A stretch of 33,560 nucleotides of DNA from a virus. Location of the stretch: positions 1 to 33,560 of the IMG/VR virus record IMGVR_UViG_3300029951_000382; one strand, given 5' to 3'. The notes beneath the pieces were generated by a model, which was not told the origin of the DNA, ran no database searches, and saw nothing but the letters and a program-made list of their open reading frames with translations. Shown one piece after another: positions 2,679 through 25,340 of this stretch (position 1 is its first letter; each line of letters opens with the position of its first letter). The position numbers were made by a program, and so were the translations under genes.

Positions 2679-2715
2679 TTGACACTTGACACCCGATCCT
2701 GCGGGTATCTATGGT
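2679..2715 (+). promoter_or_regulatory. Repressor-gene promoter overlapping operator-like site 1
   Basis: TTGACACTTGACA (2679-2691) is a one-base variant of the 13-bp motif repeated in this prophage. Its second TTGACA (2686-2691) has the right spacing (18 bp) to TATGGT (2710-2715), a TANNNT-type -10 box. The spacer contains the inverted repeat ACCCG/CGGGT. Transcription would start near 2722 and give a leader of about 40 bases before the repressor gene at 2761. The site overlaps the -35 box, so autoregulation by the repressor is the natural reading. Confidence 0.65.
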
Positions 2716-2760
2716 CTTGGTAGGCAATCACGTTCGCGGCGCTAGAAGGGTCGAGATTAA

Positions 2761-3279
2761 ATGCCACGACCGAGGACACTGCCTGATGATGAAATTCTGG
2801 TGCGGGACAAAGATTTCCTGGGTCTGAGTCTCAATGAAATCGCGGACAAGTACGGCGTGAGCAAGCAGGCCGTAAGCGCGCTTTTCATTGAGATGGGTAG
2901 ACCATGGGGCGCGGTAGCGCCGGTAAATTACCGGGACTATCTGCCCTGGGACATCGGTCGCGATCATCAGGCCCTTGATGCCGCACAGAGGCTCAGGGCA
3001 CACATCAGGTGGAGGACAGGACACCCGTCGACAGACGCGCAGTTGCGTCGTCTGTCCAACTGGCATGCACGCATCACACGCGAGAATGTAACAGTTGTGT
3101 ACGATCCTGTCCTGCCGTCGCCGTGGATCTACGTGCCGCGCACGGCTTCTGACGGAGAGTTGATCATCCGCTGGCCGGCAGACATAGAGCCTCCGACCGA
3201 CGTTCAGCGCGCTGTCCTGCTGCTACCCAGGGGCCCTGAGCTGGGCGAACGGCATGTCAGGGAGACTCTGAGTAGCTAG
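2761..3279 (+). CDS. Phage immunity repressor, mycobacteriophage L5 gp71-like
   Basis: This 172-residue protein has an N-terminal helix-turn-helix at residues about 21-45 (LSLNEIADKYGVSKQAVSAL). The rest shares features with L5 gp71 as I remember it. Both have ExADxYGVxxQAVS in the helix-turn-helix, then PWD with a downstream A-QRLR, a W-x(5)-R segment, a V-x-(F/Y)-DP strand, then YVPR-x(4)-D-x(2)-LxIR and WP-x-DIE. Length is also close (183 in L5). L5 gp71 binds asymmetric sites to silence the lytic promoter and to stop elongating polymerase at many stoperators. Here the gene is the first in the prophage next to the attachment site, with its own promoter/operator and a terminator behind it, as expected for a gene expressed alone in the lysogen. 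ATG 2761 has an AGAAGG ribosome-binding site 11 bases upstream. A generic phage DNA-binding protein is the alternative. Confidence 0.72.
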   Translation: MPRPRTLPDDEILVRDKDFLGLSLNEIADKYGVSKQAVSALFIEMGRPWGAVAPVNYRDYLPWDIGRDHQALDAAQRLRAHIRWRTGHPSTDAQLRRLSNWHARITRENVTVVYDPVLPSPWIYVPRTASDGELIIRWPADIEPPTDVQRAVLLLPRGPELGERHVRETLSS

Positions 3280-3312
3280 CCTTTACAACTTCATTACACA
3301 TCGTCACATGTC

Positions 3313-3344
3313 AGTGCTCGGTCCTAGAGTGGGCCGAGCACTTT
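3313..3344 (+). terminator. Rho-independent-type terminator after the repressor gene
   Basis: AGTGCTCGG (3313-3321) pairs perfectly with CCGAGCACT (3334-3342) around a 12-base loop and is followed by TTCGTTG. It lies 34 bases behind the repressor stop and just before the next promoter, so it separates repressor transcription from the early operon. Confidence 0.75.
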
Positions 3345-3359
3345 CGTTGTAGGTTGAAC

Positions 3360-3397
3360 TTGACGCTTGACAGGCGCACAAAGTGCGCGCGTATGAT
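3360..3397 (+). promoter_or_regulatory. Early promoter overlapping operator-like site 2
   Basis: TTGACGCTTGACA (3360-3372) is a perfect copy of the repeated motif, and TTGAAC six bases before it adds a third TTGA-type step. TTGACA (3367-3372) is followed 19 bases later by a near-consensus TATGAT (3392-3397). The spacer carries GCGCAC-AAA-GTGCGC, a perfect inverted repeat. This is the best promoter in the window and the likely start of the rightward early operon. A repressor bound here would shut that operon off. Confidence 0.75.
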
Positions 3398-3423
3398 CGT
3401 CGTCACACATCAAGCGGAGCGGG

Positions 3424-3477
3424 ATGGGTCAGTTGCGTGACAGATGTGATGGAACAGCGTCAGCGGGGGGCAGTTGA
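3424..3477 (+). CDS. Possible 17-residue leader peptide
   Basis: An ATG at 3424 with GCGGAGCGGG in front opens a 17-codon frame (MGQLRDRCDG...) whose TGA at 3475-3477 overlaps the ATG 3477 of the next gene. The overlap geometry resembles that of the other early genes, so it could couple translation. It is too short to distinguish from chance. Confidence 0.25.
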   Translation: MGQLRDRCDGTASAGGS

Positions 3478-3827
3478 TGACATTGGCGTCCGTACTGCCG
3501 GACGAACGTGGGCCGCAGACGGCCAAAACCGAAACCTTGTACGATGATGCGCCGTATGCCCGATTGATGGTCTTTCACTACCAGTGGGCAGATGTGTACT
3601 GGCTCTACGTCAGCGAGCACACCGACCCGGACGCCATCGAAGATCTCTGGACACACCTTCCCAAGACTGCCCGCTTCTCCGAATCAGAACCGTGCGCACG
3701 TGGATTCGGCAACGACGCAACACGATGCGTCGTGCACACCTTTATTGCTCGGAGAGGAGAACTGATTGAGTCAAGTCTCACGCCGGAGGTCTTTTTCACA
3801 AGTCAAGTCATGGGCCAGCTGCTCTGA
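3477..3827 (+). CDS. Early protein of unknown function
   Basis: The 116-residue product is not recognised. Its middle is aromatic and acidic (YARLMVFHYQWADVYWLYVSEHTDPDAIEDLW), suggesting a small alpha/beta fold. It is the first substantial gene behind the early promoter. The frame can start at TTG 3474 or ATG 3477, both close behind GCGGGGGGC. ATG is preferred. The last 62 bases overlap the start of the following nuclease gene, an unusually long overlap here. Either this C-terminus is tolerated or this frame is not fully used. Confidence 0.55.
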   Translation: MTLASVLPDERGPQTAKTETLYDDAPYARLMVFHYQWADVYWLYVSEHTDPDAIEDLWTHLPKTARFSESEPCARGFGNDATRCVVHTFIARRGELIESSLTPEVFFTSQVMGQLL

Positions 3828-4572
3828 GGCGTACCGACTGGAGCGCATTGTACGGGCCCCGCGACGGCCGGCAGCATGGTTCACTCATGGCACCGCATTT
3901 CACGCCGCCGTAGAGGCGTACGAGCGCTCTGGACGCACACTGACACCGGATCAGTGCATCGCCGAATTCGAGGCCGCATGGGCTGTCAGCATCATGCAGG
4001 ATTTTGAGAAGGAACCTGATCTGTCGGTGTGGATGACCGGTGGCCGGCGCAAGCCGGAGATGGACATCGAAGTCCGCTACGCCGAAGGCAAAGACATGGT
4101 CCTCCAGTACCTTGACTACATCTCCAAGAGTGGTGAGACGATCTGGACGGCGCCCGATGGGCGCCTAGCGGTCGAGCTGGAAATTGAGTTTGAACTCTCC
4201 GGCGTTCGCGTTATCGTCTACATCGACCAAGTCATCGTGACCAACGCTGGCCGGCTGGTCGTCCGGGATCTGAAGACCGGATCATCCTTCAACAGCCCGA
4301 TCCAGCTTGGCACTTACGATCTGGCGCTTTCCGCCGAGTACGGCGTCAGGACCGGTTGGGGTGACTTCTACCTGGCCAAGAAGAATAAGCCGTCGGCACC
4401 AATCGATCTGAGTCCCTACACGCCTGAGCGTGTAGGTGCATGGTTCAAGGCCATGGACTCTGCCGAGTCTCAGGGCATCTACATTCCGAGTCCTGGCGAT
4501 CACTGCCGCGTATGCGGCGTATCCCAATGGTGTGTCGCCAACGGCGGCACCGACTATCAGGAGGCATCTTGA
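3766..4572 (+). CDS. Cas4/RecB-like PD-(D/E)XK exonuclease
   Basis: The 268-residue protein shows the RecB/Cas4 nuclease order. First comes SFSQVKSWASCSEAYRLE (residues about 9-26) with the first cysteine, then HGTAFHAAVEA. The catalytic block follows: an acidic strand around VELEIEFEL, then VVRDLKTG (D-x-K of PD-(D/E)XK) and the QLGTYDLAL motif. It ends in HCRVCGVSQWC. One cysteine near the N-terminus plus three at the C-terminus is the 4Fe-4S pattern of Cas4 and AddB nucleases. It probably processes DNA ends during phage recombination or replication. The start is TTG 3766 because GGAGAGGAGA lies just upstream and the first cysteine motif would be lost with a later start. No cas genes are nearby, so a CRISPR role is unlikely. 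Confidence 0.85.
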   Translation: MSQVSRRRSFSQVKSWASCSEAYRLERIVRAPRRPAAWFTHGTAFHAAVEAYERSGRTLTPDQCIAEFEAAWAVSIMQDFEKEPDLSVWMTGGRRKPEMDIEVRYAEGKDMVLQYLDYISKSGETIWTAPDGRLAVELEIEFELSGVRVIVYIDQVIVTNAGRLVVRDLKTGSSFNSPIQLGTYDLALSAEYGVRTGWGDFYLAKKNKPSAPIDLSPYTPERVGAWFKAMDSAESQGIYIPSPGDHCRVCGVSQWCVANGGTDYQEAS

Positions 4573-5102
4573 CCACGCCATACGGCGCCCCTACTCCTTC
4601 GACTCCGCCGGAGTCTCCTCTCAGCATCAACTTCAGGATCCCCGAGGTCCCTGGCGGTCCTCAGCTCACTGTCCGCGCGGGCAACGGCAATGAACTTGCC
4701 GGGCTGACCGAGGATGTTGCGCACGCTGGTGCGCGAATCGGACATGCCTTGACCGAGTTCCGGGCCGGCTTCCTTGCCGGCTCCGGGATGCCTGCCGAGG
4801 CTCCGTCAGTTCCGGCCGTAGCGGCGCCCCAGCCGCCCTATCAGGCTCCGCCGGAGCAGCAGTATCAGAATCCCTCTGGTCCGCCCCCCTGGATGGCTCC
4901 CGCCACGCCGCCTCAGCAGGGATACTCGATGCCTGCGCAGCCTCAGCCGCCGCAGACCGGTAGTGGTCCAGTGCCGATGTGTCCTCATGGTCCGCGGACC
5001 TACAAGTCTGGCATTTCCAAGGCTGGCAAGCCGTATGCCATGTGGACATGCACTCAGCCGCAGGGACCGAGCCAGTGCGAACCTGAGTGGGCCAAGAGCT
5101 AA
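4569..5102 (+). CDS. Proline/glutamine-rich protein with C-terminal zinc ribbon
   Basis: TTG 4569 overlaps the TGA of the nuclease gene (TTGA) and has AGGAGG at 4559-4564, so it beats the upstream start at 4440. The product has 177 residues. There is an N-terminal globular part (LSINFRIPEVPGGPQLTVRAG, then a helix LTEDVAHAGARIGHALTEFRAGF), a long low-complexity Pro/Gln/Ala linker (about 78-140), and a C-terminal domain. That domain has cysteines in MCPHGPR, MWTCTQP and SQCEPEW, which could bind zinc with the histidine. Its place between a nuclease and a helicase suggests a DNA-binding accessory, possibly single-strand binding. That is inference. Confidence 0.7.
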   Translation: MTTPYGAPTPSTPPESPLSINFRIPEVPGGPQLTVRAGNGNELAGLTEDVAHAGARIGHALTEFRAGFLAGSGMPAEAPSVPAVAAPQPPYQAPPEQQYQNPSGPPPWMAPATPPQQGYSMPAQPQPPQTGSGPVPMCPHGPRTYKSGISKAGKPYAMWTCTQPQGPSQCEPEWAKS

Positions 5103-5121
5103 CTCTCTTTTGCCTCATTAA

Positions 5122-5158
5122 TTGACGCTTGACAGGTAGCCGCTTCGGCGGCTACCTT
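5122..5158 (+). promoter_or_regulatory. Promoter overlapping operator-like site 3, with a hairpin in the spacer
   Basis: TTGACGCTTGACA (5122-5134) is a perfect motif copy. Its second half is a consensus -35, and TACCTT (5153-5158) 18 bases later fits a TANNNT -10. The whole spacer is GGTAGCCGC-TTCG-GCGGCTACC (5135-5156), a 9-bp perfect stem with a TTCG tetraloop. That could be a second protein site or a terminator for the upstream genes. The gap lies between the zinc-ribbon gene and the helicase gene. Confidence 0.65.
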
Positions 5159-5177
5159 CAGGGCAGAGAGAGGGGAA

Positions 5178-5981
5178 TTGCTTACTCTCACTCAAGCGAA
5201 AAACCAGCGGGGATCCGCTGGTGAGCCTCTACCGGACATCTTCCAGTCCTTTGCGCAGAACGGCATCTATATCCGGCAGGGACAGTTGACTCTGATCTCT
5301 GCCGCTCCGGGGATCGGCAAGAGTGTCTTGTCTCAGACGATCGCCACGAAATGCGGTCTTCCTGGATACTACTTCTCTGCGGACAGCGACCAGTTCGAAA
5401 TGTATTGCCGCTGTGCGGCGATGCTGACTGGCTGGCGAAAGCAAGACATCGAATCGAGTGTTCTCGCCGGGCGCACGGAGACGATCGATGCTCGACTGTC
5501 CCAGTCTGCGATGCTGAGATATGACTTCAGTGGCTCGCCGACAACGGATTACATCGATGATGAGCTGAAGGCTTACGCGATGTATGCCGGCCGGTGGCCG
5601 GCGCTGATCGTGATGGACAACATCAGCAACATCGATATCGGGGGCAGCGCCACCGATACGGCTGCACTTGAAGAAGCTTGCGCTTACCTGCATGACGTCG
5701 CCCGGGAAACGGGCGCTGCGGTAATCGCACTGCATCACGTGCAGGGAACGTATAACGATGGCAATCAGCCGGTTCCGCTGTCTGGCCTCAGGGGCCAGAT
5801 CGGGCGAGTCCCCGAAGTCGTCCTGACTCTGCACAACGCATCGACTGAGATCGAGATGTTCAATGGCGTCAATATTCTCGGCGTGAATGCGGTCAAGAAT
5901 CGTGGCGGCAAAGCCGATCCTGCTGCACGGAACACGATTCGACTGGACTTCTATCCGGAGCGTATGGAGCTGCGGGGATAG
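5178..5981 (+). CDS. DnaB-like replicative helicase ATPase (RecA fold)
   Basis: The 267-residue protein is a compact RecA-type ATPase. It has Walker A SAAPGIGKS (about 42-50), Walker B PALIVMDNIS (about 140-149), a sensor-like ALHHVQGTYND (about 181-191) and then LSGLRGQIGRVPEVVLTL, the glycine/arginine segment seen in DnaB C-terminal domains. The N-terminal primase-interacting domain of DnaB is absent. It should act with the split primase at 7817-8729 at the phage fork. The start is TTG 5178 behind GAGAGAGGGGAA. Other family members (RadA-like or RepA helicases) remain possible. Confidence 0.8.
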   Translation: MLTLTQAKNQRGSAGEPLPDIFQSFAQNGIYIRQGQLTLISAAPGIGKSVLSQTIATKCGLPGYYFSADSDQFEMYCRCAAMLTGWRKQDIESSVLAGRTETIDARLSQSAMLRYDFSGSPTTDYIDDELKAYAMYAGRWPALIVMDNISNIDIGGSATDTAALEEACAYLHDVARETGAAVIALHHVQGTYNDGNQPVPLSGLRGQIGRVPEVVLTLHNASTEIEMFNGVNILGVNAVKNRGGKADPAARNTIRLDFYPERMELRG

Positions 5982-6031
5982 TCAAGATCATCTTTAACTG
6001 ACACTGTCGAAAATTTCTTAGGGGAGCACAC

Positions 6032-6169
6032 GTGGACTACAAGTTGTGGATGGCCGAGGCGATGACTCGGCTGATGAAGCCGGCCAAGCCGGCATACGCG
6101 CCGAATCGTGCCGGCAGGCGCGCGGCGATGCGGAGCACTCAGAAGCGAGGAAAGGGGTTCACCAAGTGA
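6032..6169 (+). CDS. Small basic early protein (45 residues)
   Basis: GTG 6032 follows AGGGGAG at a good distance, and the TGA (6167-6169) overlaps the next gene's GTG in a GTGA arrangement. The product begins with a short amphipathic part (YKLWMAEAMTRLMKP) and ends strongly basic (RAGRRAAMRSTQKRGKG). That suggests nucleic-acid binding, but there is no recognisable family. Translational coupling on both sides is the main support. Confidence 0.6.
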   Translation: MDYKLWMAEAMTRLMKPAKPAYAPNRAGRRAAMRSTQKRGKGFTK

Positions 6170-6432
6170 CCTATCGCGAGATTCGCGTCTATGACGAGAA
6201 CATTCATCTCGTCACCGAGACTGACGGAACTCACACCGTGAGCAAGCTTTTCGGCAAGTCTCCTTACTTCGGCACGAATCAAATCGAGCTGTCTCGGGGT
6301 GAAGCCTTCCGGCATCCTCATGACGAAGAGTACGACAGGATCGGGCAGTATCTCGCTGTTCGACGTGCCCTGTTGGCTGAAGCTGAGGTGCTTGCCAAGG
6401 CTCTTGCCCTTCTTGGTGTGACCGTCGATTGA
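6166..6432 (+). CDS. Early protein of unknown function (88 residues)
   Basis: The start is GTG 6166, overlapping the stop of the small basic gene; the longer frame from 6046 would bury that gene. The product opens with strands (YREIRVYDENIHLVTETDGTHTVSKLF) and ends with a helix of leucine and alanine (RRALLAEAEVLAKALALLG), perhaps a dimerisation helix. No family is recognised. Its stop overlaps the TTG of the endonuclease VII gene, so it belongs to one translationally coupled chain. Confidence 0.65.
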   Translation: MTYREIRVYDENIHLVTETDGTHTVSKLFGKSPYFGTNQIELSRGEAFRHPHDEEYDRIGQYLAVRRALLAEAEVLAKALALLGVTVD

Positions 6433-6869
6433 CCGCACGTAAGGGCTATCGACCCTGCAAGAAGTGCCACCGAGATCGGGCAGAGAGATTCTTCACCTCG
6501 GCCAGAGGCCATACGTGCTCATCGTGTCGCAAGAATGGCCGCTCTGCGGCCGGACATGAGGCCAGAGTCATGGCCACCTATGGACTCGCCAAGGGCGAGT
6601 ATGAAGCACTCTTCAAGGCTCAGGACGGCCGATGTGCCATCTGTGGTGGAAGGCGCCGAGAGCGCCTATCGGTAGACCACTGCCACAAGACTGGGCTCAT
6701 CCGAGGACTTCTCTGCCGAATGTGTAATGGCCGTCTGCTGACGGCTGCACGAGACAAGCCGGATGTTCTACGTGCCGGCGCTGACTATCTCGACAATCCA
6801 CCCGCAGCGCGGGTGATCGGACAACGCTTCTACACGGGCGAAGACAAGAAAGCGGGGAAACTATGGTGA
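6429..6869 (+). CDS. Recombination endonuclease VII (HNH/treble-clef nuclease)
   Basis: The 146-residue protein carries the endonuclease VII signature. After YGLAKGEYEALFKAQDGRCAICGG come SVDHCHKTGLIRGLLCRMCN, where CAIC and CRMC bind the structural zinc and the DH-x-H element is catalytic. An additional N-terminal pair, CKKCHRD and CSSCRK (about 10-34), is seen in many actinophage versions. T4 endonuclease VII resolves branched DNA before packaging; related phage enzymes may instead nick host DNA. TTG 6429 overlaps the previous stop (TTGA). No typical intron or homing context surrounds it. Confidence 0.87.
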   Translation: MTARKGYRPCKKCHRDRAERFFTSARGHTCSSCRKNGRSAAGHEARVMATYGLAKGEYEALFKAQDGRCAICGGRRRERLSVDHCHKTGLIRGLLCRMCNGRLLTAARDKPDVLRAGADYLDNPPAARVIGQRFYTGEDKKAGKLW

Positions 6870-7267
6870 GCACCGAGAAGACACTTCCCGAGATCTATCG
6901 TGAGGCTGCCGAGCTAGTCCTGAAGGACGGCAAGGTGACAGGCCAAATGAAGAAGATTGCCGAGGATCGATGCTTCGGCTTCTGTACCATGGGCGCGGTT
7001 TTCGAGGCATCGGGCAACCTCGAAAAGTATGGCTCCCTCTCGTCCGACTTTGACGAGTCGGACGAGTATTACCGGCTGGTCAACCCGGTTGCCAATCAGA
7101 TCACTGAATCTGGAAGGCTCGACACAATCCCGGGCCGCGATCCATTCTGGGTCATCGCGGACTGGAACGACAATCCGAGCAGCGACAAGGCTGCCCCTTC
7201 GGCTGAGGATGTTGCTGTCCTGCTTCGCGAGACTGCCGATCGCATCGAGAATGGAGACAACGCCTGA
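6863..7267 (+). CDS. DUF6197-like protein
   Basis: The 134-residue product matches by eye the DUF6197 pattern common in Streptomyces and its phages. It has an N-terminal helix (LPEIYREAAELVLKDGKVTG), a cysteine-containing FGFCTMGAVFEASG core, a WNDNPS motif, and a C-terminal helix VAVLLRETADRIENG. The function of the family is unknown to me. It overlaps the preceding gene by 7 bases from ATG 6863; GTG 6866 would give the GTGA overlap used by neighbours and is equally possible. Confidence 0.7.
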   Translation: MVSTEKTLPEIYREAAELVLKDGKVTGQMKKIAEDRCFGFCTMGAVFEASGNLEKYGSLSSDFDESDEYYRLVNPVANQITESGRLDTIPGRDPFWVIADWNDNPSSDKAAPSAEDVAVLLRETADRIENGDNA

Positions 7268-7866
7268 TGGCAACTGCCGAGAAGACGACCATCAAGGTCG
7301 AGAAGACGATCCAGGCCGATGAGGATGCCTATATCCTGACGCTGTCCAAGGATGAGGCCGAGACCCTTCGCGCCGTCGTGGGAATGCACGTTAACGGCGC
7401 CGGCCGGCGCAAGCATACCGACGCCATCTGGCACGCACTTAATGCGGCTGGCATCAATCCGGGCCGTATCAGTGGGATCAAGGGCATGATCACCATGGAG
7501 AATGGCCCGGATCCGGCGAAGCCCAAGATCGGCGATCGAGTGAGGATCACCCGCGCCGACGATTACCCGGATTGGGTTGGTTGGGTTGGCATCCTTGTGG
7601 ACCTTGATACCGATGACGAACCCTATTTCGTGGACAGCATCGGATGGGTTAACGACGTTGAGACGGTCAATGACTCGCCCATCAAGGTTGGGGATCGAGT
7701 GAAGATCCTTGAGGCGTACTGTGCAGAGCAGTATGTCGGAGAAATGGGAGTAGTGACTAGTGTCACCGACACTTGGCACTGCGCCGCAGGACCCCACCCC
7801 TATCGAGTTCACAGGGATGGCGGTACAGGAGAACTTCACGTCAAGCGCGTTGAGCGCGTCAGCTAA
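7267..7866 (+). CDS. Protein with two SH3/KOW-like repeats, function unknown
   Basis: The 199-residue product has an N-terminal half with a helix-rich part (LSKDEAETLRAVVGMHVNGAGRRKHTDAIWHALN). Two similar beta modules follow, PKIGDRVRITRADDYPDWVG (about 87) and IKVGDRVKILEAYCAEQYVG (about 141). The GDRV-x-I start followed by a V-G-x-x-G turn resembles KOW or SH3-like barrels that bind nucleic acid or protein. The products of 10220-10579 and 12326-12691 have one related module each. ATG 7267 abuts the previous stop. Its 3' end overlaps the primase gene. Confidence 0.65.
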   Translation: MATAEKTTIKVEKTIQADEDAYILTLSKDEAETLRAVVGMHVNGAGRRKHTDAIWHALNAAGINPGRISGIKGMITMENGPDPAKPKIGDRVRITRADDYPDWVGWVGILVDLDTDDEPYFVDSIGWVNDVETVNDSPIKVGDRVKILEAYCAEQYVGEMGVVTSVTDTWHCAAGPHPYRVHRDGGTGELHVKRVERVS

Positions 7867-8251
7867 ACCCCCCATCGCCGACGTTGTCCGGCACTACCAT
7901 CCCGATGCGGTAGTGCCGGACCGCGAATACGGCTGGCAGAAAATGAGATGCCCGTTCCATGGGGAACGGAACGCCTCAGCATCCATCAATCTGGAAGCCG
8001 ACTTCTTTCAATGCTTCGCGTGTGACGCGTCGGGTGATTCGTGGAGTATCATCATGAGGGAGGAATCATGTGACTTTCGCGGTGCCGTCGAAATCGCAGA
8101 AAGATTTTTTGGGTTCAGCGGCGGCTCAGTACGCGGCGGATCTGGCCGTGCACGGCGCGGCACAAGCTTGGCTGATGAAGCGGGCCCTGTCCGAGGCCAG
8201 CGCACGATCTTTTCAGCTAGGCGTGGTCGCAAACCCCTTGCCGAGTCATGA
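7817..8251 (+). CDS. DNA primase zinc-binding (CHC2) domain protein
   Basis: The DnaG-type zinc ribbon is clear: CPFHGERNASASI, then FFQCFACDASGDSWSIIM, giving ligands Cys, His, Cys, Cys. The helical REESCDFRGAVEIAERFFG that normally closes this domain follows. Here it should recognise the initiation site on single-stranded template. The start is uncertain: ATG 7817 is used, and TTG 7850 would give a closer match to the domain edge. After about 8110 this frame reads like a shadow (arginine/glycine-rich) while the +1 frame continues the primase. The gene is therefore half of a split primase; see the T-run and the Toprim entry. Confidence 0.75.
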   Translation: MAVQENFTSSALSASAKPPIADVVRHYHPDAVVPDREYGWQKMRCPFHGERNASASINLEADFFQCFACDASGDSWSIIMREESCDFRGAVEIAERFFGFSGGSVRGGSGRARRGTSLADEAGPVRGQRTIFSARRGRKPLAES

Positions 8252-8729
8252 GCAGTACCGTGGCCGGCTGGCCATCCCGTATCTGACACTCTCTGGTGTC
8301 TGCGGGATGGCCTTCCGATGCCTTGAGTCTCACGACTGCAAAGAGGCTCATGGAGGCACCAAGTACTTGTACTCCAAGGGCGACAGCAGGCGCATGTTCA
8401 ACACTCCGGCCTTGGATACTCAGTCCCCATGGATTGCGATCTGTGAGGGCGAGATGGACACCATTGCAGCCACTCAGGCCGGTGTGCCGGCTGTAGGAGT
8501 CCCTGGCGTGACCAACTGGCAGAGATACTGGGCCAGATGCTTCAAGGGCTTCGATACGGTCTACATCTTGGCTGATGCGGATGATGTCGGCCAAGGATCC
8601 GAGATGGCCAAGAAGATCGAGAGCCACGTGCCGCAGGCACGAACCATCCTCATGCCTCAAGGGCATGACGTGAACTCGCTCATTATCGAGCAAGGACCAG
8701 AAGCGCTGATAGCGCGGATTGGAGCATGA
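8070..8729 (+). CDS. DNA primase Toprim (catalytic) domain protein
   Basis: The 219-residue frame starts at GTG 8070 right after GGGAGGAATCAT, an excellent ribosome-binding site. After about 15 residues that overlap the zinc-domain gene, it continues with the primase linker (AAQYAADLAVHGAAQAWLMKR). The Toprim core follows: WIAICEGEMDTIAATQAG (catalytic Glu) and DTVYILADADDVGQGSEMA (DxD). It synthesises primers for replication together with the helicase. It overlaps the zinc-domain frame by 182 bp. A separate Toprim subunit, a frameshifted full-length primase, or both could be made. Confidence 0.82.
   Translation: MTFAVPSKSQKDFLGSAAAQYAADLAVHGAAQAWLMKRALSEASARSFQLGVVANPLPSHEQYRGRLAIPYLTLSGVCGMAFRCLESHDCKEAHGGTKYLYSKGDSRRMFNTPALDTQSPWIAICEGEMDTIAATQAGVPAVGVPGVTNWQRYWARCFKGFDTVYILADADDVGQGSEMAKKIESHVPQARTILMPQGHDVNSLIIEQGPEALIARIGA
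8105..8110 (+). other. T6 run at the primase frame crossover, possible slippage site
   Basis: Six T residues are read TTT-TTT in the zinc-domain frame and (T)TTT-TTG in the Toprim frame. The run sits exactly where homology to DnaG passes from one frame to the other. A +1 or -2 shift, or polymerase slippage on the run, would fuse both domains into one DnaG-like chain. The strong internal start at 8070 makes simple re-initiation the more economical reading. Confidence 0.35.
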
Positions 8730-8926
8730 TGGCAGCGAAACGCTGGTATGCCCTAATTGATGTGGACGAGAGGGGCCCGTACCTGTCTTTCACGGGATTT
8801 CCTAGCGCCAAACATGCGCGGGAGTGGGGAAGCCTTCTTGTAGAGAAGAACCACAAGGGGAAGCTGATCGACGTCATCAAGCTGTCCGTCAATTCGCGCG
8901 GGGCATTGGGGAGGCTGAAGAAGTGA
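8726..8926 (+). CDS. Small early protein of unknown function (66 residues)
   Basis: ATG 8726 overlaps the primase stop (ATGA). The product is a mixed alpha/beta miniature with a strand (KRWYALIDVDERGPYLSFTGF), a helix (AKHAREWGSLLVEKN) and a basic end (GRLKK). I do not recognise a family. Its own stop overlaps the next gene's GTG. Confidence 0.65.
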   Translation: MMAAKRWYALIDVDERGPYLSFTGFPSAKHAREWGSLLVEKNHKGKLIDVIKLSVNSRGALGRLKK

Positions 8927-9216
8927 CTAGTCCGGTACCGAGTCCTAGCGCGGGATCGAAGAAGCCGAAGATGAACGGCATTCGGCCTGCCGGCGTGATC
9001 GTGGACGAGACGCGCAGCGTCCTGACAACCCAGATGTGGTTTGCCGTGATGGAGCGGCCCGATGGCTCGATGTGGATTCGCTCCATCGGATATGGCACGC
9101 AAGAGGAATCAGAGCGAGAGACCATGAGAGAGGATTGGGAGGCCGATCCCATTGCGCATATCTGCATGTCCCAGCTCACCCGGGACGCACTTCAGAACAA
9201 CCATATCTACTTCTGA
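8923..9216 (+). CDS. Early protein of unknown function (97 residues)
   Basis: GTG 8923 (GTGA overlap, GGGAGG upstream) is chosen over the long upstream extension to 8824, which would overlap the previous gene by 100 bases. After a Ser/Pro/Lys-rich start the product has two strands (TTQMWFAVMERPDGSMWIRSIGYG) and acidic helices (EESERETMREDWEADPI). No function can be assigned. It is the last gene before operator-like site 4. Confidence 0.62.
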   Translation: MTSPVPSPSAGSKKPKMNGIRPAGVIVDETRSVLTTQMWFAVMERPDGSMWIRSIGYGTQEESERETMREDWEADPIAHICMSQLTRDALQNNHIYF

Positions 9217-9224
9217 GCTATTTC

Positions 9225-9237
9225 TTGACGCTTGACA
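9225..9237 (+). promoter_or_regulatory. Stoperator-like site 4
   Basis: This is a perfect TTGACGCTTGACA in the 33-bp gap between 9216 and 9250, in the direction of transcription. No TANNNT box lies 16-19 bases downstream, so it is unlikely to be a promoter. It shares the 19-bp string TATTTCTTGACGCTTGACA with site 5 on the other arm, showing conservation beyond the 13 bases. Confidence 0.7.
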
Positions 9238-9249
9238 GATTGGGGCACG

Positions 9250-9465
9250 ATGAAGAGCTTTGACATGGCTGGTGGCTGGGACTTCGAAGAGATCGAGAGG
9301 GAAGAGAAAGACCGATCGGCAAACATGATTCGCGACAGCTATAGGCGAATCGTGGAGACTGCCGTAGGCATCGAGGTGGACGCAATCAACGCTGGCGCCC
9401 CCAAGGATCTTGCGAAGGCAGTTTCTCGCCTTGCGCTTGCTCGCATGCTGGGACTGACGACTTGA
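9250..9465 (+). CDS. Small acidic helical protein of unknown function (71 residues)
   Basis: The frame could start at TTG 9232, inside the operator-like motif, but ATG 9250 with GGGG in front is more sensible. The product is largely helical and charged (DFEEIEREEKDRSANMIRDSYRRIVETAVG, then DLAKAVSRLALARMLGL). No family is recognised. The stop overlaps the TTG of the metallophosphatase gene. Confidence 0.6.
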   Translation: MKSFDMAGGWDFEEIEREEKDRSANMIRDSYRRIVETAVGIEVDAINAGAPKDLAKAVSRLALARMLGLTT

Positions 9466-10223
9466 CCAAGGAACAAACGATCCTGGTATGGCCCGATACC
9501 CAGATCCCAGAGCAGGACAATCGCGCGGTCAACGCGCTGATCTCCTTCATCAACGACTTCGGCCCTGATGGCATCGTTGACATCGGCGACTGGATGGATT
9601 TCAGCCCTCCGTCCCGCTGGTCCAAGGGCACCGCCCAGGAATACGACACAAGTCTGACCCGTGACCTCAAGGTGGCTCATGGAATTCAGGCGCGTGTCCG
9701 CGCGGTGCATGATGGTTGGTGGAAGCGTCATCTCGGAAATCACGATATGCGAGTGGCCGACTCTGTTCGCCGTTACTCGCCGTGGCTGTACGGCTATGAG
9801 GGCATCTCGTACGACTCCATGCTGAAGCACGAGGAGTACGGGATCGAGACTCTGCCGCTGATCTACGACATTGCCCCGGGCTGGATCAGTACCCATGGCC
9901 ATAAAGGCACTCACATGTCTCAGCGGCCGGCAGGCACGGCCATGAGCCTGGTCAAGAGGACCAGCAAGAGCGTCGTAATCGGCCATACACATCGTGCCGG
10001 GCTGGAGCCCTGGGATAGGGGCTACAACGGCCATACGGACCGACTGTGGGCTATGGAAGTCGGGAACCTGATGGATATGCGCAAGGCGTCCTATCTGGAG
10101 ATCGGCTCCGCGAACTGGCAGACCGCTTTTGGTCTGCTTCACGTCAAGGGCCGGCAGGTCCGGCCTGAGGTCATCTACATCACGAACGGCCGTTTCGTTG
10201 TCGATGGGAAGGAGTACAGGTGA
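9462..10223 (+). CDS. Calcineurin-like metallophosphoesterase
   Basis: The 253-residue protein shows all metallophosphatase blocks in order: DTQIPEQ (D-x-Q in place of the usual D-x-H), GDWMDF (GD-x2-D), GNHDMR (GNHD), STHGHKG and VIGHTHRAG (GHxH). These ligate two metal ions. Phage members of the family are thought to cleave phosphodiesters in nucleic acid or nucleotides, though the substrate here is unknown. The D-x-Q change also occurs in other phage members and should keep metal binding. The start is TTG 9462, overlapping the preceding stop. Confidence 0.87.
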   Translation: MTKEQTILVWPDTQIPEQDNRAVNALISFINDFGPDGIVDIGDWMDFSPPSRWSKGTAQEYDTSLTRDLKVAHGIQARVRAVHDGWWKRHLGNHDMRVADSVRRYSPWLYGYEGISYDSMLKHEEYGIETLPLIYDIAPGWISTHGHKGTHMSQRPAGTAMSLVKRTSKSVVIGHTHRAGLEPWDRGYNGHTDRLWAMEVGNLMDMRKASYLEIGSANWQTAFGLLHVKGRQVRPEVIYITNGRFVVDGKEYR

Positions 10224-11184: not shown

Positions 11185-11194
11185 GGAGGATGGC

Positions 11195-12803: not shown

Positions 12804-12998
12804 TCAGCCTAGCTCACCGTTCTTGATCGCGGAGACGAACGCCGACCAGGCTTCAGAGCCGAACTGAAGTGCCGGCCCCTGGGGGTCCTTCGTGTCGCCT
12901 ACAGCGACACCATCAACAGCGGCAACCTCTACACAGTCGCCAGACGCATTGCTGTAGCTGGCCTTACGCCAGGTGCCCTCGATACCGTGCTTCATCAT
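12804..12998 (-). CDS. DUF397 protein, Scr2/WhiJ-partner type
   Basis: The 64-residue protein is a typical DUF397: WRKASYSNASGDCVEVA, then VAVGDTKDPQGPALQF and W-x-AFVSAIKNGE. Such proteins are almost always encoded next to an XRE/DUF5753 regulator in Streptomyces. They are thought to act with it in development or as a toxin-antitoxin-like pair (Scr1/Scr2, WhiJ loci). Here the start (ATG 12998 or 12995) overlaps the regulator stop, so they are co-translated. Confidence 0.88.
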   Translation of the reverse strand: MMKHGIEGTWRKASYSNASGDCVEVAAVDGVAVGDTKDPQGPALQFGSEAWSAFVSAIKNGELG

Positions 12999-13849
12999 GG
13001 CGCATACTCCTTAGCGAGTTGGTGTAGCCAGTCGCGCGTTCGCTCTGGCGGATCCGCAGACGCCATGAGTCGACTGAAAGCGTCTTCATGGCGATCGAGG
13101 TCTGATGGTCGGTCCATATAAAGTGCACCGGTCATAGCCTCTGTATAGGCCACGGTTCCGGGCACTTCGTCAGTGAACTCGAAGAGCACGAAGCTTTGTC
13201 CCATGCTGGCATGGGCTCCGGCAGTGAAGGGCAGGAACTGCACCACAACCTTGGAACTTCGCGAAAGATCGGCCAGCTTGAGTAGCTGAGCTGCCATAAT
13301 GGCCGGCGATCCAACAGGGCGCCGGGCAACAGCTTCGCTCATGACTGCCCAGATCTGCGGACCCTCTGGACGATCAAGGATCGCCTGGCGCTCCATCCGA
13401 AGCGCAACACGTTGATCAATCTGGTCGCTGGTCTCCAGTGGATGCCCCACTTGGAACACTGCCCGAGCGTAGTCCTGGGTCTGGAACAAGCCGGGGATCA
13501 ACTCCTGCTGGAACGTGCGGATCCTGGCAGCGTCAGCCTCAAACCCTACGTAGTCGGCGAACCAGCCGGGCACCGAGTCTCCGTAGGACTGCCACCATCC
13601 TCGCTGCCGGCTACGGCGAGCAAGATCTCTGATCGATCGCACCTCGTCATCGGCCGTTACCCCATAGATTTCAAGCAGGGGACGTACGTCCGCATCCCGA
13701 AGGGCGATCTCTCCCGACTCGATACGAGACAGCTTGCTCAGCGACCAGCCGAGCGGGGCACAGACGTCCTTGGCTGCGATGTTCTGGTCTGACCGCAACT
13801 TGCGCAGCGACGCGCCCAGACGTCGCCTCAGCACGGTTGGACTCTGCAC
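12995..13849 (-). CDS. XRE-family regulator with DUF5753 domain (Scr1/WhiJ type)
   Basis: The start is GTG 13849, behind GGGAGAGG. The longer frame to 13900 adds only an Arg/Gly-rich stretch. Residues about 5-60 are a Cro/C1-type helix-turn-helix (ASLRKLRSDQNIAAKDVCAPLGWSLSKLSRIESGE). Residues about 90-265 are DUF5753 (YVGFEADAARIRTFQQELIPGLFQTQDYARAV, then QILR-like RQAILDRPEGPQIWAVMSEAVARRPVG and VQFLPFTAGAH). Chromosomal relatives control sporulation, antibiotic production or act as an antitoxin. In a prophage it may bring lysogenic conversion or silence its own locus. Its own upstream region carries a direct repeat. Confidence 0.9.
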   Translation of the reverse strand: MQSPTVLRRRLGASLRKLRSDQNIAAKDVCAPLGWSLSKLSRIESGEIALRDADVRPLLEIYGVTADDEVRSIRDLARRSRQRGWWQSYGDSVPGWFADYVGFEADAARIRTFQQELIPGLFQTQDYARAVFQVGHPLETSDQIDQRVALRMERQAILDRPEGPQIWAVMSEAVARRPVGSPAIMAAQLLKLADLSRSSKVVVQFLPFTAGAHASMGQSFVLFEFTDEVPGTVAYTEAMTGALYMDRPSDLDRHEDAFSRLMASADPPERTRDWLHQLAKEYAP

Positions 13850-13933
13850 GCTGCCTCTCCCAGGTCGATGACGCACATACAGTCTCCCACCACCTCTCAC
13901 CTGATCAACCCCCGGCTCGCGCGATCATGCAAC

Positions 13934-13961
13934 TTGCACTTGCTGTCAAATTTGCACTTGC
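13934..13961. repeat. Two 10-bp direct repeats in the divergent promoter region
   Basis: TTGCACTTGC occurs at 13934-13943 and 13952-13961, exactly 18 bp apart, in the 177-bp space between the divergent XRE and ATPase genes. Read on the minus strand, TTGACA (13950-13945) lies between the copies and could be the -35 of the XRE gene, with GCAAGTGCAA covering its spacer. This is a natural operator layout for the XRE protein, inferred from position only. Confidence 0.5.
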
Positions 13962-14026
13962 ATCGGAGCCTACCTGCGGGGCATCATGAAGTCAGGAAGA
14001 TTGCTCATAGTGATCGCGAGTCGCCC

Positions 14027-14491
14027 ATGAGTGATCTTGATCCGGCATCAGATTGGATCATCATGGGATCAGCCGTGTTAGCTGTGGCTTGGAGACGCTT
14101 CTACGTCAGTACGCCCGAAGGGCTTTCGTCGCTCAGGCGACACTGCCGTCGGTCCATGGAGCTGCAATGGCTCCTACTCAATCCCGTCCTCGATGCCGCA
14201 GAGCTGGTCATCAGCGAGCTAGCCACGAACGCGATCAGGCACGCCGATGGTGTGGAGGGCATAGACCTGCGGATCGTAGACGTCTACTACGACCATCCCG
14301 TCCTGACGATCGAGTGCCGAGATGGATCCCCCGTCTTCGATGTTGTGGCGCCCGGCAACTCCCTCTCAGACAGCTGTCGCGGTCTGGGTATCGTCACCGC
14401 GCTCACGGACCACTGGCACATAGAGCCCAGGGGTTCAGGCAAGTCAGTGATCGCGGTCATCGACACGTCACTCAAACGGGTGAAGCTGTAG
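14027..14491 (+). CDS. RsbW/SpoIIAB-like histidine-kinase-type ATPase (anti-sigma-like)
   Basis: This 154-residue protein has the HATPase_c_2 motifs. The N box is ELVISELATNAIRHA, the G1-like box is CRDGSPVFD and the G2 box is SCRGLGIVTALTDHWHIEPRGSGKSVIAVI. Proteins of this kind bind ATP and may phosphorylate anti-anti-sigma factors. In Streptomyces chromosomes they commonly stand next to DUF5753/DUF397 pairs, as here. The start is uncertain: ATG 14027 has a poor ribosome-binding site, ATG 14063 is also possible, and the frame is open from 13868. Confidence 0.82.
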   Translation: MSDLDPASDWIIMGSAVLAVAWRRFYVSTPEGLSSLRRHCRRSMELQWLLLNPVLDAAELVISELATNAIRHADGVEGIDLRIVDVYYDHPVLTIECRDGSPVFDVVAPGNSLSDSCRGLGIVTALTDHWHIEPRGSGKSVIAVIDTSLKRVKL

Positions 14492-16772: not shown

Positions 16773-16783
16773 TCAATCTCCTC

Positions 16784-17089: not shown

Positions 17090-18279
17090 CACGTGCCTCC
17101 CGACAGTTGATAAGTGAGGGTCCTTGTGGTGCCGGTGAACTGCTCGCCAGGTCCCAAAGGAATCGTGAAGGTGTCCAGCAAGTGCAATTCGGTCTTGCCG
17201 TCCGGATAGACGACCAGAACGATATCTCCGGCCTCAAGAGCTGGATTGGGGCACACTGTGAAAGATAGCGATCGGGCCAGTCCAAGGAAGTTCTGGAGCT
17301 GCGCCTCAGCCGCTACTGCGGCATCTGCAATCGTTGTGATCAGGCTGTTGGTGTAGCGGTAAGTGCTGGCACCGAACGGCCCCTGGGGATTGCCCGTAGC
17401 AGACGGACCGTAATACGTAGGACTCCGTGGATCCGTGTCACACGCATAGCCAACCGGGGGCGGTCCAGATCCAGTTGAGGATCCGTAGCACGACACTGCG
17501 TTGTAGACGCCGGACCGGCTGACAGTCCTCTGTGCCTGCACCAGGACGCCAGTGGATGATCCTCCGGCCGCGATAGCAGCCGGCGTGCTGGCGTCCATTA
17601 CCCACACCGCCGCACTGGTCGGCGTGGACTGACTCAGTGATGGAATCGGAACGTATTGGGCAATACCGTTGGCATCGAAGTAGCACTCTGCGTTCAGGAA
17701 TCCTGCAATGGTGCTGACTGCATCCCATCGGTCGGTATCGAAAGTCGTGCCTCCAGGAGTTGTTCCGTCACCAAGACCAGGCGCGAACTTCACTGCTGCA
17801 TACGGGACGACGTCCTGAATCAGGCGCGTTCCCACAGAGACAACGTCCTGTCCGGACCTGTCGATCGGATCCAGGAAGCTGGCCTCGATGACCGCTTGAG
17901 AGCGGTCGAAGAAATCCACGATGGGCAATCCACCATTGGACTGCCCGGGGGCAGTCTCCTCATAAACGTCTTCGATCCTGAACCAGCCGAGACTGATCAT
18001 CTCGGTCGTTCCATCGGGAAAGGTGATGCCCTGTTTGATATTCAGCTCGGCGCCATACGGGGCCAAAGCAGAGTTCGCGAAGGTGGGGAAAAAAGTCGGG
18101 TCACCGATCGTGCATGTTCCCGAGCGTCGGGTCTTCGACGTCCGATCGACCGTGATCGTGCCATCCACGATCGGCACACCAGCAACGACAAGCGCTTGGT
18201 TGTACCAGACGTCTACGGTCGTAATGGTGACGTGAGAGCCCCTGAGGGCCGTCAGGAAGCGGTCGGATACTGGCAGCAT
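17089..18279 (-). CDS. Minor tail protein with DUF5047 domain
   Basis: The 396-residue product has the DUF5047 beginning: MLPVSDRFLTALRGSHVTITTVDVW, then VDGTITVDRTSKTRRSGTCTIGDP, ALAPYGAELNIKQGITFPDGTTEMISLGWFRI. DUF5047 is found in actinophage baseplate/tail-hub proteins beside the distal-tail gene. The C-terminal half (ALEAGDIVLVVYPDGKTELHLLDTFTIPLG) resembles the hub folds of tail-tip proteins. ATG 18279 overlaps the preceding stop. Confidence 0.82.
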   Translation of the reverse strand: MLPVSDRFLTALRGSHVTITTVDVWYNQALVVAGVPIVDGTITVDRTSKTRRSGTCTIGDPTFFPTFANSALAPYGAELNIKQGITFPDGTTEMISLGWFRIEDVYEETAPGQSNGGLPIVDFFDRSQAVIEASFLDPIDRSGQDVVSVGTRLIQDVVPYAAVKFAPGLGDGTTPGGTTFDTDRWDAVSTIAGFLNAECYFDANGIAQYVPIPSLSQSTPTSAAVWVMDASTPAAIAAGGSSTGVLVQAQRTVSRSGVYNAVSCYGSSTGSGPPPVGYACDTDPRSPTYYGPSATGNPQGPFGASTYRYTNSLITTIADAAVAAEAQLQNFLGLARSLSFTVCPNPALEAGDIVLVVYPDGKTELHLLDTFTIPLGPGEQFTGTTRTLTYQLSGGT

Positions 18280-19568
18280 CAAATACCACCGGGGCCCGTG
18301 CCGTAGGCTTCGTCAAGAACGCTCAGGTAGGTTGCACGGTCATCAAGCAGGTTCTGGTAAGTCCCGAAGTTCGTCACCAGCAGATAAGAGTTGCCGGGGA
18401 TCGATGTAAGAGCGCCGGAAGGCGAATCGACCTCGGTGAAATCGATCTGCCAAATACGAGTCAGGTCAGACGACGTCTGCGCCGGCCGCTGTTCTGTGAC
18501 GTCACCAGCGATGAAATACATGTCGGCGAAGTAGTCATCAGGTGTAGCCTGAAAGAACAGGGTAGTTCCAGGCTGGAGAAGACCCAGGATCGACTGATAG
18601 TCGGTCGTGCCAATCGTCATCAGACTCAGCGTGCCTGTACGTCCGGTAAGGACGTCCGAGACAACCACCGGATTCGATCTGCCAACCACGGGATAGACCT
18701 GCTGACGAGACGGACGCTTGACGTCCGACAGAGTCTGAATGGTGACCTGAGTATTCAGAGCCGACTGGGACAAGTTTTTGAGCCAGCCGACACTACTCGA
18801 CACAGGGATCGTCACTGCTGGCGAGACGATCTGATATGTGGTTGTGGTGCCATCAGGCTGCGGCTGTTCCACGATCACCGCATAGGTACATGCGGCGCCG
18901 AGAGGCGCCTCAACATCGAAGCCAGTCCACGCATCCACTCCACCAGTCGAGATGCCGTTGGCAGACCGAATGATGGATTGGGATCCGTCAGGATTGGTCC
19001 TCTGGATCGAGAAGGTAGTCCATCCGGTCAGTCCACTCACCGAGATCTCGTTATAGGCGAGAGACCCATTTGGTGTCACGGTCACGGCCAGAGCCGGAGA
19101 GCCGAGATACATTTGGTCAAAGTAGAAGAGATTACCGCTGCTGGCCGCCTGCGGATGCATGACCAGTGAAGCACCAACTGCGCCAGCCGGCGCAGTCAGA
19201 ACCATCGACAGCTGACTGAACACCCCCGGCGCAAGAACGTAAGGTGCAGCCGGATTCTCTAGAACATAGAGGTTGTGCCCCGAGGAATCGTAATAGTCGA
19301 TCTCGATAAGGACGGAGTTGTAGGTATTGTTCCAGCAGCTGAAGTACGCCTGATAGGTCTCACCCGCCGTGATGGGTACGCCAGCGTTGAGAACGATGGA
19401 GATTGAACCAGCTCCAGTAGACGTACACAGCAGAGAGTACGTGCCGTCAAGAGCCTCGGCTGAGCTTTGAGAGAGAGTGCCTGGACCACTCGTGATGGTC
19501 CAGGCACTCGTATCGGTCTCAATCGACTGTGCGTTGTAGGAAAGTAGATTCCCAGGAATCAACGTCAT
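18279..19568 (-). CDS. Minor tail protein with N-terminal carbohydrate-binding-like domain
   Basis: The 429-residue protein has a jelly-roll-like N-terminal domain at residues about 5-155: NLLSYNAQSIETDTSAW, AGVPITAGETYQAYFSCW and GNLFYFDQMYLG follow the CBM/discoidin style. A beta-rich middle (about 160-260) resembles a fibronectin III fold. The C-terminal part (SRQQVYPVVGRSNPVVVSDVLTGRTGTLSL) looks like a distal-tail hub. The N-terminal module could bind cell-wall sugar. It is encoded immediately behind the tape measure and overlaps it (ATGA). Confidence 0.75.
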   Translation of the reverse strand: MTLIPGNLLSYNAQSIETDTSAWTITSGPGTLSQSSAEALDGTYSLLCTSTGAGSISIVLNAGVPITAGETYQAYFSCWNNTYNSVLIEIDYYDSSGHNLYVLENPAAPYVLAPGVFSQLSMVLTAPAGAVGASLVMHPQAASSGNLFYFDQMYLGSPALAVTVTPNGSLAYNEISVSGLTGWTTFSIQRTNPDGSQSIIRSANGISTGGVDAWTGFDVEAPLGAACTYAVIVEQPQPDGTTTTYQIVSPAVTIPVSSSVGWLKNLSQSALNTQVTIQTLSDVKRPSRQQVYPVVGRSNPVVVSDVLTGRTGTLSLMTIGTTDYQSILGLLQPGTTLFFQATPDDYFADMYFIAGDVTEQRPAQTSSDLTRIWQIDFTEVDSPSGALTSIPGNSYLLVTNFGTYQNLLDDRATYLSVLDEAYGTGPGGI

Positions 19569-24589: not shown

Positions 24590-24598
24590 GTAGCCTCC

Positions 24599-25260
24599 CT
24601 AGGACATGAGGAATCCCGCGATATCGGCGTTAGATGCTGCGGGAACAAGAACTTCGGAATCGGAAATACCTGGACGCGGGATACGCGTCGGACGCGTCGG
24701 CTTCTCCTCGCCATGGACAGAGGAGTAGGCCCACTGGATCTCTCCAAGGAGATCGACAGTGATTGCTAGCAGGTGGTCGCTCCGCGACCAGTCAGCCATC
24801 TCGCCATTCGTATCGTGCGAGAGCTGAGAATCCTGTGGAAGCCGACGGATCAAATTCAGAAGCCGTCGGCTGGACAGTGTGCCCCTGTACCAGTCGTAGA
24901 TATCGACGCGGTAGTAGTGGAGGAGATCAGCTTCAATAGCCTCTGCGTGCTCGTTGATCAGCTCACAGAGGGCGAGTCTTCCCCCACGCTCGCACCAGTC
25001 TCAGAGCGCCACGCATCCAGAATCGCCCGGACATCCTGGACGGAAACCTTGTGGGCGAAAAACCGGGTCGATGCATCAACGTCGTTCATCACCGCGCTAA
25101 CAATCTGCTTCAGATCATTGCCGGCATTCGCCATCGTCTCCAGCACATCAACGGGCAGTTCCGTCGGAAAGTTGAAGGTCTCGCCATCAATCACAAACTC
25201 GAACTTCTCGCCGTTCGCCTCAAGGCGCTGAGCACGGGCGGCATTAACGTCAAAAGCCAT
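24599..25260 (-). CDS. Tail assembly chaperone, frameshifted long form (GT-like)
   Basis: After a -1 shift at 24979 the ribosome reads RLALCELINEHAEAIEADLL, then YDWYRGTLSSRRLLNLIRRLP, and runs to TAG 24601-24599. The total is 94 plus 126 residues. The -1 frame lacks a good start of its own for the first part and encodes conserved-looking helical sequence directly from the slippery site (LLAITVDLLGEIQWAYSSV). That is the classical signature of programmed frameshifting in siphovirus chaperones. The shorter frame from 24853 is only the tail end of this product. Confidence 0.85.
24958..25260 (-). CDS. Tail assembly chaperone, short form (G-like)
   Basis: The 100-residue product is read without frameshift. 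Helical segments (PVDVLETMANAGNDLKQIVSAVMNDVDASTRFFAHKV and VQDVRAILDAWR) fit the G family, between tail tube and tape measure where lambda G/GT-like chaperones sit. It binds the tape measure during tail polymerisation. The slippery site at 24979-24985 near its end gives the longer form. Confidence 0.85.
   Translation of the reverse strand: MAFDVNAARAQRLEANGEKFEFVIDGETFNFPTELPVDVLETMANAGNDLKQIVSAVMNDVDASTRFFAHKVSVQDVRAILDAWRSETGASVGEDSPSVS
24979..24985 (-). promoter_or_regulatory. Programmed -1 frameshift slippery heptamer G-GGG-GAA
   Basis: On the minus strand the short-form codons read GTG-GGG-GAA-GAC, giving G.GGG.GAA. Slipping one base back keeps perfect pairing for the Gly tRNA and two of three pairs for Glu. 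It joins the short chaperone frame to the open -1 frame that ends at 24599. Confidence 0.8.
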
Positions 25261-25286
25261 GGTGTGTAAATCCCTTCGAGAGGATG

Positions 25287-25316
25287 CCTGTCCCCGCCCC
25301 TCTAAGCGGGGACAGG
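25287..25316. terminator. Long stem-loop between tail tube and chaperone genes
   Basis: CCTGTCCCCGC (25287-25297), an eight-base loop, GCGGGGACAGG (25306-25316) is a perfect 11-bp stem. On the minus strand it follows the tail-tube stop by about 40 bases. It lacks a T run, so it may be a partial terminator or an mRNA-stabilising stem that keeps the tail-tube message more abundant than the chaperone message. Confidence 0.6.
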
Positions 25317-25327
25317 CCGAATATGGG

Positions 25328-25340
25328 TGTCAAGCGTCAA
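25328..25340 (-). promoter_or_regulatory. Stoperator-like site 5 in the late operon
   Basis: A perfect TTGACGCTTGACA on the minus strand, between the tail-tube stop and the stem-loop. As in the early arm it runs with transcription. No -10 box lies at the right distance. It is the only copy found in the late operon, and it matches site 4 over 19 bases (TATTTC before the 13-mer). Confidence 0.7.

Follow-up and report, generated by a model that had tools for sequence, protein, structure and literature searches.

Known Systems and the Locus Studied

Repressor–stoperator immunity is known from cluster A phages such as L5 and TipsytheTRex, in which a two-domain repressor (gp71 in L5) is paired with 20–30 sites (PMC6550527) of the sequence GGTGGMTGTCAAG (the L5 site given in PMC3029335) and is described as blocking transcription initiation and arresting elongation (PMC6550527, PMC9283540). 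Here we analyze IMG/VR virus record IMGVR_UViG_3300029951_000382, positions 1–33,560 (henceforth the window, meaning this whole stretch of 33,560 nt), in which a gene at 2761–3279 encodes a homolog of these repressors and a 13-mer, TTGACGCTTGACA, is repeated between genes. It is highly probable, in our view, that the two make up repressor/stoperator immunity of the L5 type in a temperate tailed phage that has a serine integrase and resides in a streptomycete-like soil actinomycete.

The locus resembles those of L5 and TipsytheTRex in having a homologous two-domain repressor, asymmetric intergenic sites of 13–14 bp that start with CTTGA and lie mostly in one orientation, and, judged by sequence, a site in a putative early promoter. 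It differs in the second half-site, which is TTGACA here and KCCACC there, in four of the five second-domain base contacts (R108 is kept, as R97), and in the number of sites, of which we find 11.

A repressor–stoperator system has also been published for Streptomyces phages, namely for the R4 group (BD; PMC10276819), and the R4 repressor gp29 (PHROG_3929) is annotated as "similar to L5 gp71". The supposition of the first-pass annotation, which was made from the sequence alone, that no such Streptomyces system had been described is not supported; the kind of system was known, also in this group. The novelty lies in the site sequence, paired here with an Ibantik-like repressor branch, and neither strand of the 13-mer was found in the open-licence PMC papers searched. 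The window repressor matches PHROG_3929, and, as in the R4 group, the early genes run from repressor through exonuclease and helicase to primase. However, the R4 repeats (GCGACACTTGCAC / CGTCACTTACACA) are a different motif, and the tblastn matches to R4-like phages, among the matches listed, begin only at residue 59–61, in the second domain. Across the 50 kb of R4 that we covered, the number of copies of the window 13-mer was 0.

The best named relatives of the repressor, the "immunity repressor" gp55 of Ibantik and gp38 of Ponzi, lie in a similar early gene order, and each phage has its own (G/C)TTG-type repeat. These motifs (GTTGACACGAGACA and CTTGAAACTGTCA, respectively) are not the one found here, the window 13-mer being present 0 times at one mismatch or less in 50 kb of each phage, and in Ibantik 3 of 10 sense sites lie inside annotated genes. 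For the Rhodococcus phages of cluster CA (Rasputin and Takoda; TGTCTATTGTCAAG), the 14-bp CTTGACAATAGACA agrees with CTTGACGCTTGACA, the repeat of our phage, at 11 of 14 positions, and the helix-turn-helix (HTH) regions align without gaps (RQYVSW versus KQAVSA), whereas the middle of the site and the host differ.

The Repressor Homolog

In searches against PHROGs the repressor open reading frame (ORF) matched PHROG_3929 (1.9e-13) and PHROG_357 (3.8e-12), both annotated as "transcriptional repressor". As positive controls, R4 gp29 returned PHROG_3929 (1e-87) and the repressor of the cluster A phage Fredward returned PHROG_357 (1e-82). A phmmer search matched residues 2–137 to PDB entries 7r6r/7tz1 ("Immunity repressor"; 8.2e-9), which, judging from its fit to the residues named in PMC9283540, we equate with the TipsytheTRex repressor. 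With tblastn we obtained 150 phage records at E values of 1e-5 or less (by name 78 Streptomyces, 66 Mycobacterium, 5 Rhodococcus, and 1 Gordonia), 14 of which span 80% or more of the query; the closest named relatives are Ibantik gp55 (35.3% identity) and Ponzi gp38 (32.5%). A Pfam search of the repressor gave no match. The homology spans both the HTH and the stoperator domain. The resemblance to L5 gp71 that had been proposed for this gene is borne out by the PHROG, 7r6r, and tblastn results, in that the protein is a homolog of L5-type two-domain repressors, and the profile search suggested as a check recovered two repressor families, one of them shared with the Fredward repressor.

Number and Placement of the Repeats

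All five copies of the 13-mer listed in the first-pass annotation, at 2679, 3360, 5122, 9225, and, on the minus strand, 25328, are present in the window, four of them exact and one with a single mismatch (TTGACACTTGACA). In 100 dinucleotide shuffles of the window, copies at no more than one mismatch averaged 0.06 and never exceeded 2, in agreement with the expectation that chance copies would be very rare. When up to three mismatches were allowed, 15 matches were observed compared with 8.1 expected, and we take the ten further matches as background. Each of the five copies lies fully outside genes, as do only 7.0% of all 13-base placements under our hand-picked gene calls, and each is on the same strand as the flanking coding sequence, just as had been noted from the letters alone.

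Two more IMG/VR records, 3300030617_000051 (G001) and 3300031964_000803 (G002), represent the same phage at 99.99–100% identity, as does a short contig with three copies (L027, 99.98%). The search for copies elsewhere in the prophage, which had been suggested as a check, yielded six more sites on these other contigs (G002 coordinates 35353, 35388, 36349, 40438, 40566, and 42040), giving 11 sites in about 44.8 kb, 8 exact and 3 with one mismatch. In a search with no preset motif, the most over-represented 13-mer of the phage was the window motif (10 copies compared with 0.11 expected; the site at 2679 lies outside the stretch covered by that search). A better form of the motif is the 14-mer CTTGACG-CTTGACA, a 7-bp tandem repeat whose leading C is found in 9 of the 11 sites.

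Six of the 11 sites begin 3–19 nt past a stop codon. The gene context of the six outside the window was judged visually, with ORF lists and sequence but no gene caller; three of them begin 3–8 nt past a stop codon, one is immediately 5' of a start codon, and two (35353 and 35388) have an ambiguous context. Judged by ORF direction, orientation along transcription is firm in 9 of 11. One site follows, by 3 nt, the stop codon of a gene for a phage-encoded 943-aa DNA polymerase III alpha with a PHP domain (L001, 76–2907).

These counts bear on the idea that the copies are a chance or neutral dispersed repeat. The bare 14-mer does occur in many unrelated contigs among the matches listed from large collections, most of these loci holding a single copy, and seven loci outside this phage hold two copies, some of them overlapping, at one mismatch or less, among the matches listed. 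No convincing repressor match was found in those seven two-copy loci (just 0.065 in L110). One further locus (L082, in record G003) combines a related repressor with a single copy of the window 14-mer, yet its own repeat differs; relatives like it (L248 and L249) lie outside the analyzed set. However, three whole actinobacterial genomes of 6.6–10.9 Mb, chosen for holding the motif, contain one exact copy each, compared with the 11 sites of this phage. Three or more copies are confined to records of this phage among the matches listed, and chance is already contradicted by the 11 sites and by the shuffle counts, with five intergenic, sense-strand copies in the window where 0.06 were expected. 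We regard this explanation as extremely improbable.

Overlap with Promoter-Like Sequences

Because the second half of the motif, TTGACA, is a perfect −35 hexamer at most sites, the repeats might instead be promoter parts only, that is, −35 boxes or start-associated sequences for a host or phage sigma factor, with the repressor homolog incidental. A −10-like box with at least four of six matches follows two of the five window sites, 2679 and 3360 (table 1), as well as 36349 of G002 (TAGAGT at 18). Weaker boxes with three of six matches are seen at 5122 (TACCTT at 18) and at 40438 of G002 (CAGGAT at 17), and 9225 has at most three. The earlier statement that three copies supply a −35 box was thus generous, as it stands for 2679 and 3360 but reaches only three of six matches at 5122. 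What argues against promoters alone is that 8 of the 11 sites have no −10 box of four matches, that 5122 and 25328 lead into strong hairpins, that the constant part of 13–14 bp exceeds what a −35 box needs, and that the same-layout repeats of related phages are not −35 boxes (e.g., GTTGATTCGAGACC) and track repressor residues (see below). We therefore consider a promoter-only function improbable, and an L5-type system the better reading.

A promoter scan of positions 2500–9500, with spacers of 16–18 allowed, returned just the pair at 2686, compared with 2.5 in shuffles; the putative early promoter at 3367, recognized by sequence match, has a spacer of 19 and lies beyond the limit of that scan. 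Terminator-like sites in the region number 4, compared with 4.2 in shuffles, and are weak evidence alone. We also considered hairpins after the sites as part of the mechanism and set this aside, as the mean folding energy at the 11 sites (−13.2 kcal/mol, compared with −11.0 for a background of 4000 random positions; p = 0.04) is a weak difference, and the strongest two, after 25328 and 5122, may be ordinary terminators. The site at 25328 lies 15 nt after the tail tube gene (25356–25940, minus strand).

Table 1. Predicted features of the immunity region and related sites in the window
Feature	Coordinates	Strand	Remarks
Candidate autoregulatory operator (operator 1)	2679..2691	+	TTGACACTTGACA, one mismatch; 5' of repressor gene
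Promoter-like pair TTGACA-18-TATGGT	2686..2715	+	Before repressor gene; −35 within operator 1; consensus match only
L5-type two-domain immunity repressor, 172 aa	2761..3279	+	PHROG, PDB, and tblastn homology
Intrinsic-terminator-like hairpin	3313..3342	+	3' of repressor gene
Predicted operator 2	3360..3372	+	Exact; within likely early lytic promoter
Promoter-like pair TTGACA-19-TATGAT	3367..3397	+	−35 within operator 2; faces exonuclease, DnaB, and primase genes
Candidate stoperator	5122..5134	+	Exact; 19 nt past stop codon ending at 5102; hairpin 5135–5156 next
Candidate stoperator	9225..9237	+	Exact; preceded at 8 nt by a stop codon with its end at 9216, followed at 13 nt by the ATG at 9251; lacks a good −10
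Candidate stoperator	25328..25340	−	Exact; in leftward structural operon; strong hairpin at ~25286–25317 follows

Repeats in Loci with Related Repressors

Our search with no preset motif, in which over-representation of 13-mers at one mismatch or less was judged relative to a third-order Markov background, covered 27 loci, namely this phage and 26 others that encode a related repressor. Of these 26, 18 come from 16 genomes out of 392 of Streptomyces and 2 from 394 genomes of the class, and the rest are Ibantik, Ponzi, R4, Takoda, and two IMG/VR contigs, one of which was picked up by the 14-mer scan. Among the 26 related loci, 11 have their own (C/G)TTGNN... repeat of the same layout as CTTGACGCTTGACA, 3 have an R4-type repeat (R4, G201a, and G105), and 12 have none that is clear (G167, G042, G316, G301, G153, G068, G035, G201b, G250, G177, G649, and G706). 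Of the last set, G068 and G706 each show a top-ranked word but are counted here as having no clear repeat, and two, G177 (9.5 kb) and G250 (19.6 kb), are short.

The same-layout repeats are GTTGACACGAGACA in Ibantik and IMG/VR 2934411495, GTTGATTCGAGACC in IMG/VR 3300049172, GTTGGAATGTGACA in G036, GTTGGGATGTGACA in G157, GTTGCCAAGAGGC in G269, GTTGATGTGCG in G046a, CTTGACCGGTAACC in G046b, GTTGTCGTGAG in G313, CTTGAAACTGTCA in Ponzi, and CTTGACAATAGAC in Takoda, the last of which reproduces the published cluster CA consensus (PMC13313380). The G046b word ranked third, and Ponzi and G313 have 5 and 4 copies, respectively. Sites at two mismatches or less run along transcription in 10 of 11 cases in Ibantik and 18 of 19 in Takoda. 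The R4 word as written opposes transcription in 14 of 16, so that its complement is the sense form. Counted relative to the repressor strand, without gene calls, copies are on that strand in G036 (9/13), G157 (10/15), G269 (10/12), G046a (4/6), G046b (6/6), and G313 (4/4). An Ibantik match at 19214, with two mismatches and within the helicase gene, was set aside, and G649, whose protein was read first with a view to a test of prediction, showed no motif and so provided no such test.

Probable Assignment of Domains to Half-Sites

In the TipsytheTRex structure, bases are contacted by R45, Q46, and W50 of the HTH and by K75, D78, K79, K81, and R108 of the second domain, with D104 supporting R108 (PMC9283540). 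In our alignment to 7r6r, with a residue numbering offset to TipsytheTRex that we infer, the HTH equivalents are K35, Q36, and A40, and those of the second domain are R67, Q70, A71, D73, and R97. We compared residues with bases in 12 repressor–site pairs, namely the 11 distinct pairs from our search (Ibantik standing for L251, which was left out of the residue table with a repressor 90% identical to that of Ibantik) and L5 with its published site. All 6 pairs that have C at position 5 carry K or R at the place of R45, and none of the 6 lacking it does (Fisher 0.002; 0.015 with the mixed G269 taken as C). Likewise, K stands at the place of W50 in all 7 pairs whose base 0 is G and in none of the other 5 (Fisher 0.001). 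Across 22 HTH columns with residues grouped by class, the R45 and W50 columns have the lowest permutation p values for bases 5 and 0 (0.015 and 0.0016, respectively, unadjusted).

Since the equivalents of R45 and W50 track bases in the first heptamer, CTTGACG is most likely the half read by the HTH, and TTGACA that read by the second domain. We rejected the second CTTGACA as the L5 core, because related motifs have their TTG in line with the first heptamer, where the bases track these residues. The L5 core had been matched to the second half in the first-pass annotation, which put it in the wrong register: the TCAAG end of the L5 site (CTTGA reversed), reported as invariant among the described sites (PMC5559632), has its counterpart in the first heptamer, (C)TTGACG.

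The near identity of the tandem CTTGACG and CTTGACA, with the leading C in 9 of 11 sites, might also suggest a direct repeat bound by the HTHs of two repressor molecules, one per heptamer. Yet in relatives the second half (CGAGACA, TGTGACA, and AGAGGCC) is no copy of the first while the layout is unchanged, and the solved homolog binds as a monomer (PMC9283540), making such an arrangement unlikely in our judgment. Returning to one two-domain molecule per site, we tentatively raise a further possibility, more doubtful than the assignment itself, namely that a two-residue HTH code, in which residue 45 sets base 5 and residue 50 sets base 0, extends from mycobacterial to streptomycete phages, and that here the HTH and the second domain read near-identical heptamers, resulting in a tandem-repeat operator.

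Proposed Mechanism

From the homology, the number, placement, and orientation of the sites, and the residue–base correlation, we infer binding, the domain-to-half-site assignment, an initiation block, autoregulation, elongation arrest, and immunity, along the following lines. The repressor, probably a monomer, would bind the asymmetric 14-bp CTTGACG-CTTGACA with its N-terminal HTH on the upstream heptamer and its C-terminal "stoperator" domain on the downstream TTGACA. At 3360 it would cover the −35 of the early promoter and block initiation, at 2679 it would cover the −35 of its own promoter and so be autoregulatory, and at 36349 of G002 it may block initiation as well. At most other sites, which are intergenic and lie along transcription, the bound repressor would halt elongating RNA polymerase; the intergenic, sense-strand distribution is that of stoperators. 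The analogy with L5 is strong in sequence and layout, and it is from L5 that the biochemical steps would carry over.

A number of observations weigh against this interpretation. The 11 sites fall below the 20–30 of cluster A phages. No clear motif was found in 12 of the 26 related loci, including one whose repressor has 43% identity (G649), and in Ponzi just 3 of 5 copies run along transcription and 2 of 5 oppose it. The sites at 35353 and 35388 of G002 precede a rightward ORF and are overlapped by a leftward ORF, neither with a PHROG match. The −10 boxes are consensus matches alone, and the AlphaFold model is poor (mean pLDDT confidence score 48.7, from three sequences) and adds nothing. The equivalent of D104 is A93 and so is not conserved. 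Column 24 (p = 0.003) explains base 0 nearly as well as column 40 does, and column 25 (p = 0.029) has more mutual information with base 5 than column 35. The pairs are few, share ancestry, and had been viewed before the rule was formed, which makes the p values guides. Counts for the rule initially covered 11 pairs; G046b, added later with word and protein already known, is mixed at base 0 (C in 4 of 6 sites).

Integration, Host, and Neighboring Genes

The window left of ~2485 is host-like DNA, whereas in G001 the integrase gene continues straight into the repressor region, and G001 looks, from its sequence, like the unintegrated form. The junction (window ~2485; L001, 5115–7127) falls within the serine integrase gene close to its 3' end, at approximately codon 638 of 670, and integration would therefore change the C-terminus of the enzyme, as judged from the one junction observed. 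The integrase also has a DUF4096 (IS4/5 transposase) domain at 535–597. The host-like flank (1–2484) encodes a solute-binding protein (31–927, plus strand) and a DeoR-type regulator (956–1801, minus strand), and the prophage appears to interrupt an EamA-type transporter ORF (1866–2558, minus strand). Against 392 Streptomyces genomes the flank is just about 69–75% identical among the matches listed, so the Streptomyces host assumed at first is better called streptomycete-like.

Elsewhere in the window, a glycosyltransferase gene (27737–28708, minus strand) adjoins the major head protein gene (28722–29741). Genes for an HTH_31-DUF5753 regulator (12995–13900, minus strand) and an HATPase_c_2 protein (13868–14491, plus strand) form a divergent pair. 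Such a pairing is familiar from streptomycete regulatory loci, and the pair is a possible second prophage regulator.

Implications

Our analysis carries stoperator immunity beyond the mycobacteriophages in which it was worked out, into another branch of streptomycete prophages that has its own sites. The repressor–site pairs lead to a concrete and cheaply testable rule on the residues that set operator bases, which bears on the splitting of immunity groups, and they make it easier to annotate actinophage genomes for repressors and their operators from sequence only. If the two-residue code is true, immunity groups would be predictable from sequence.

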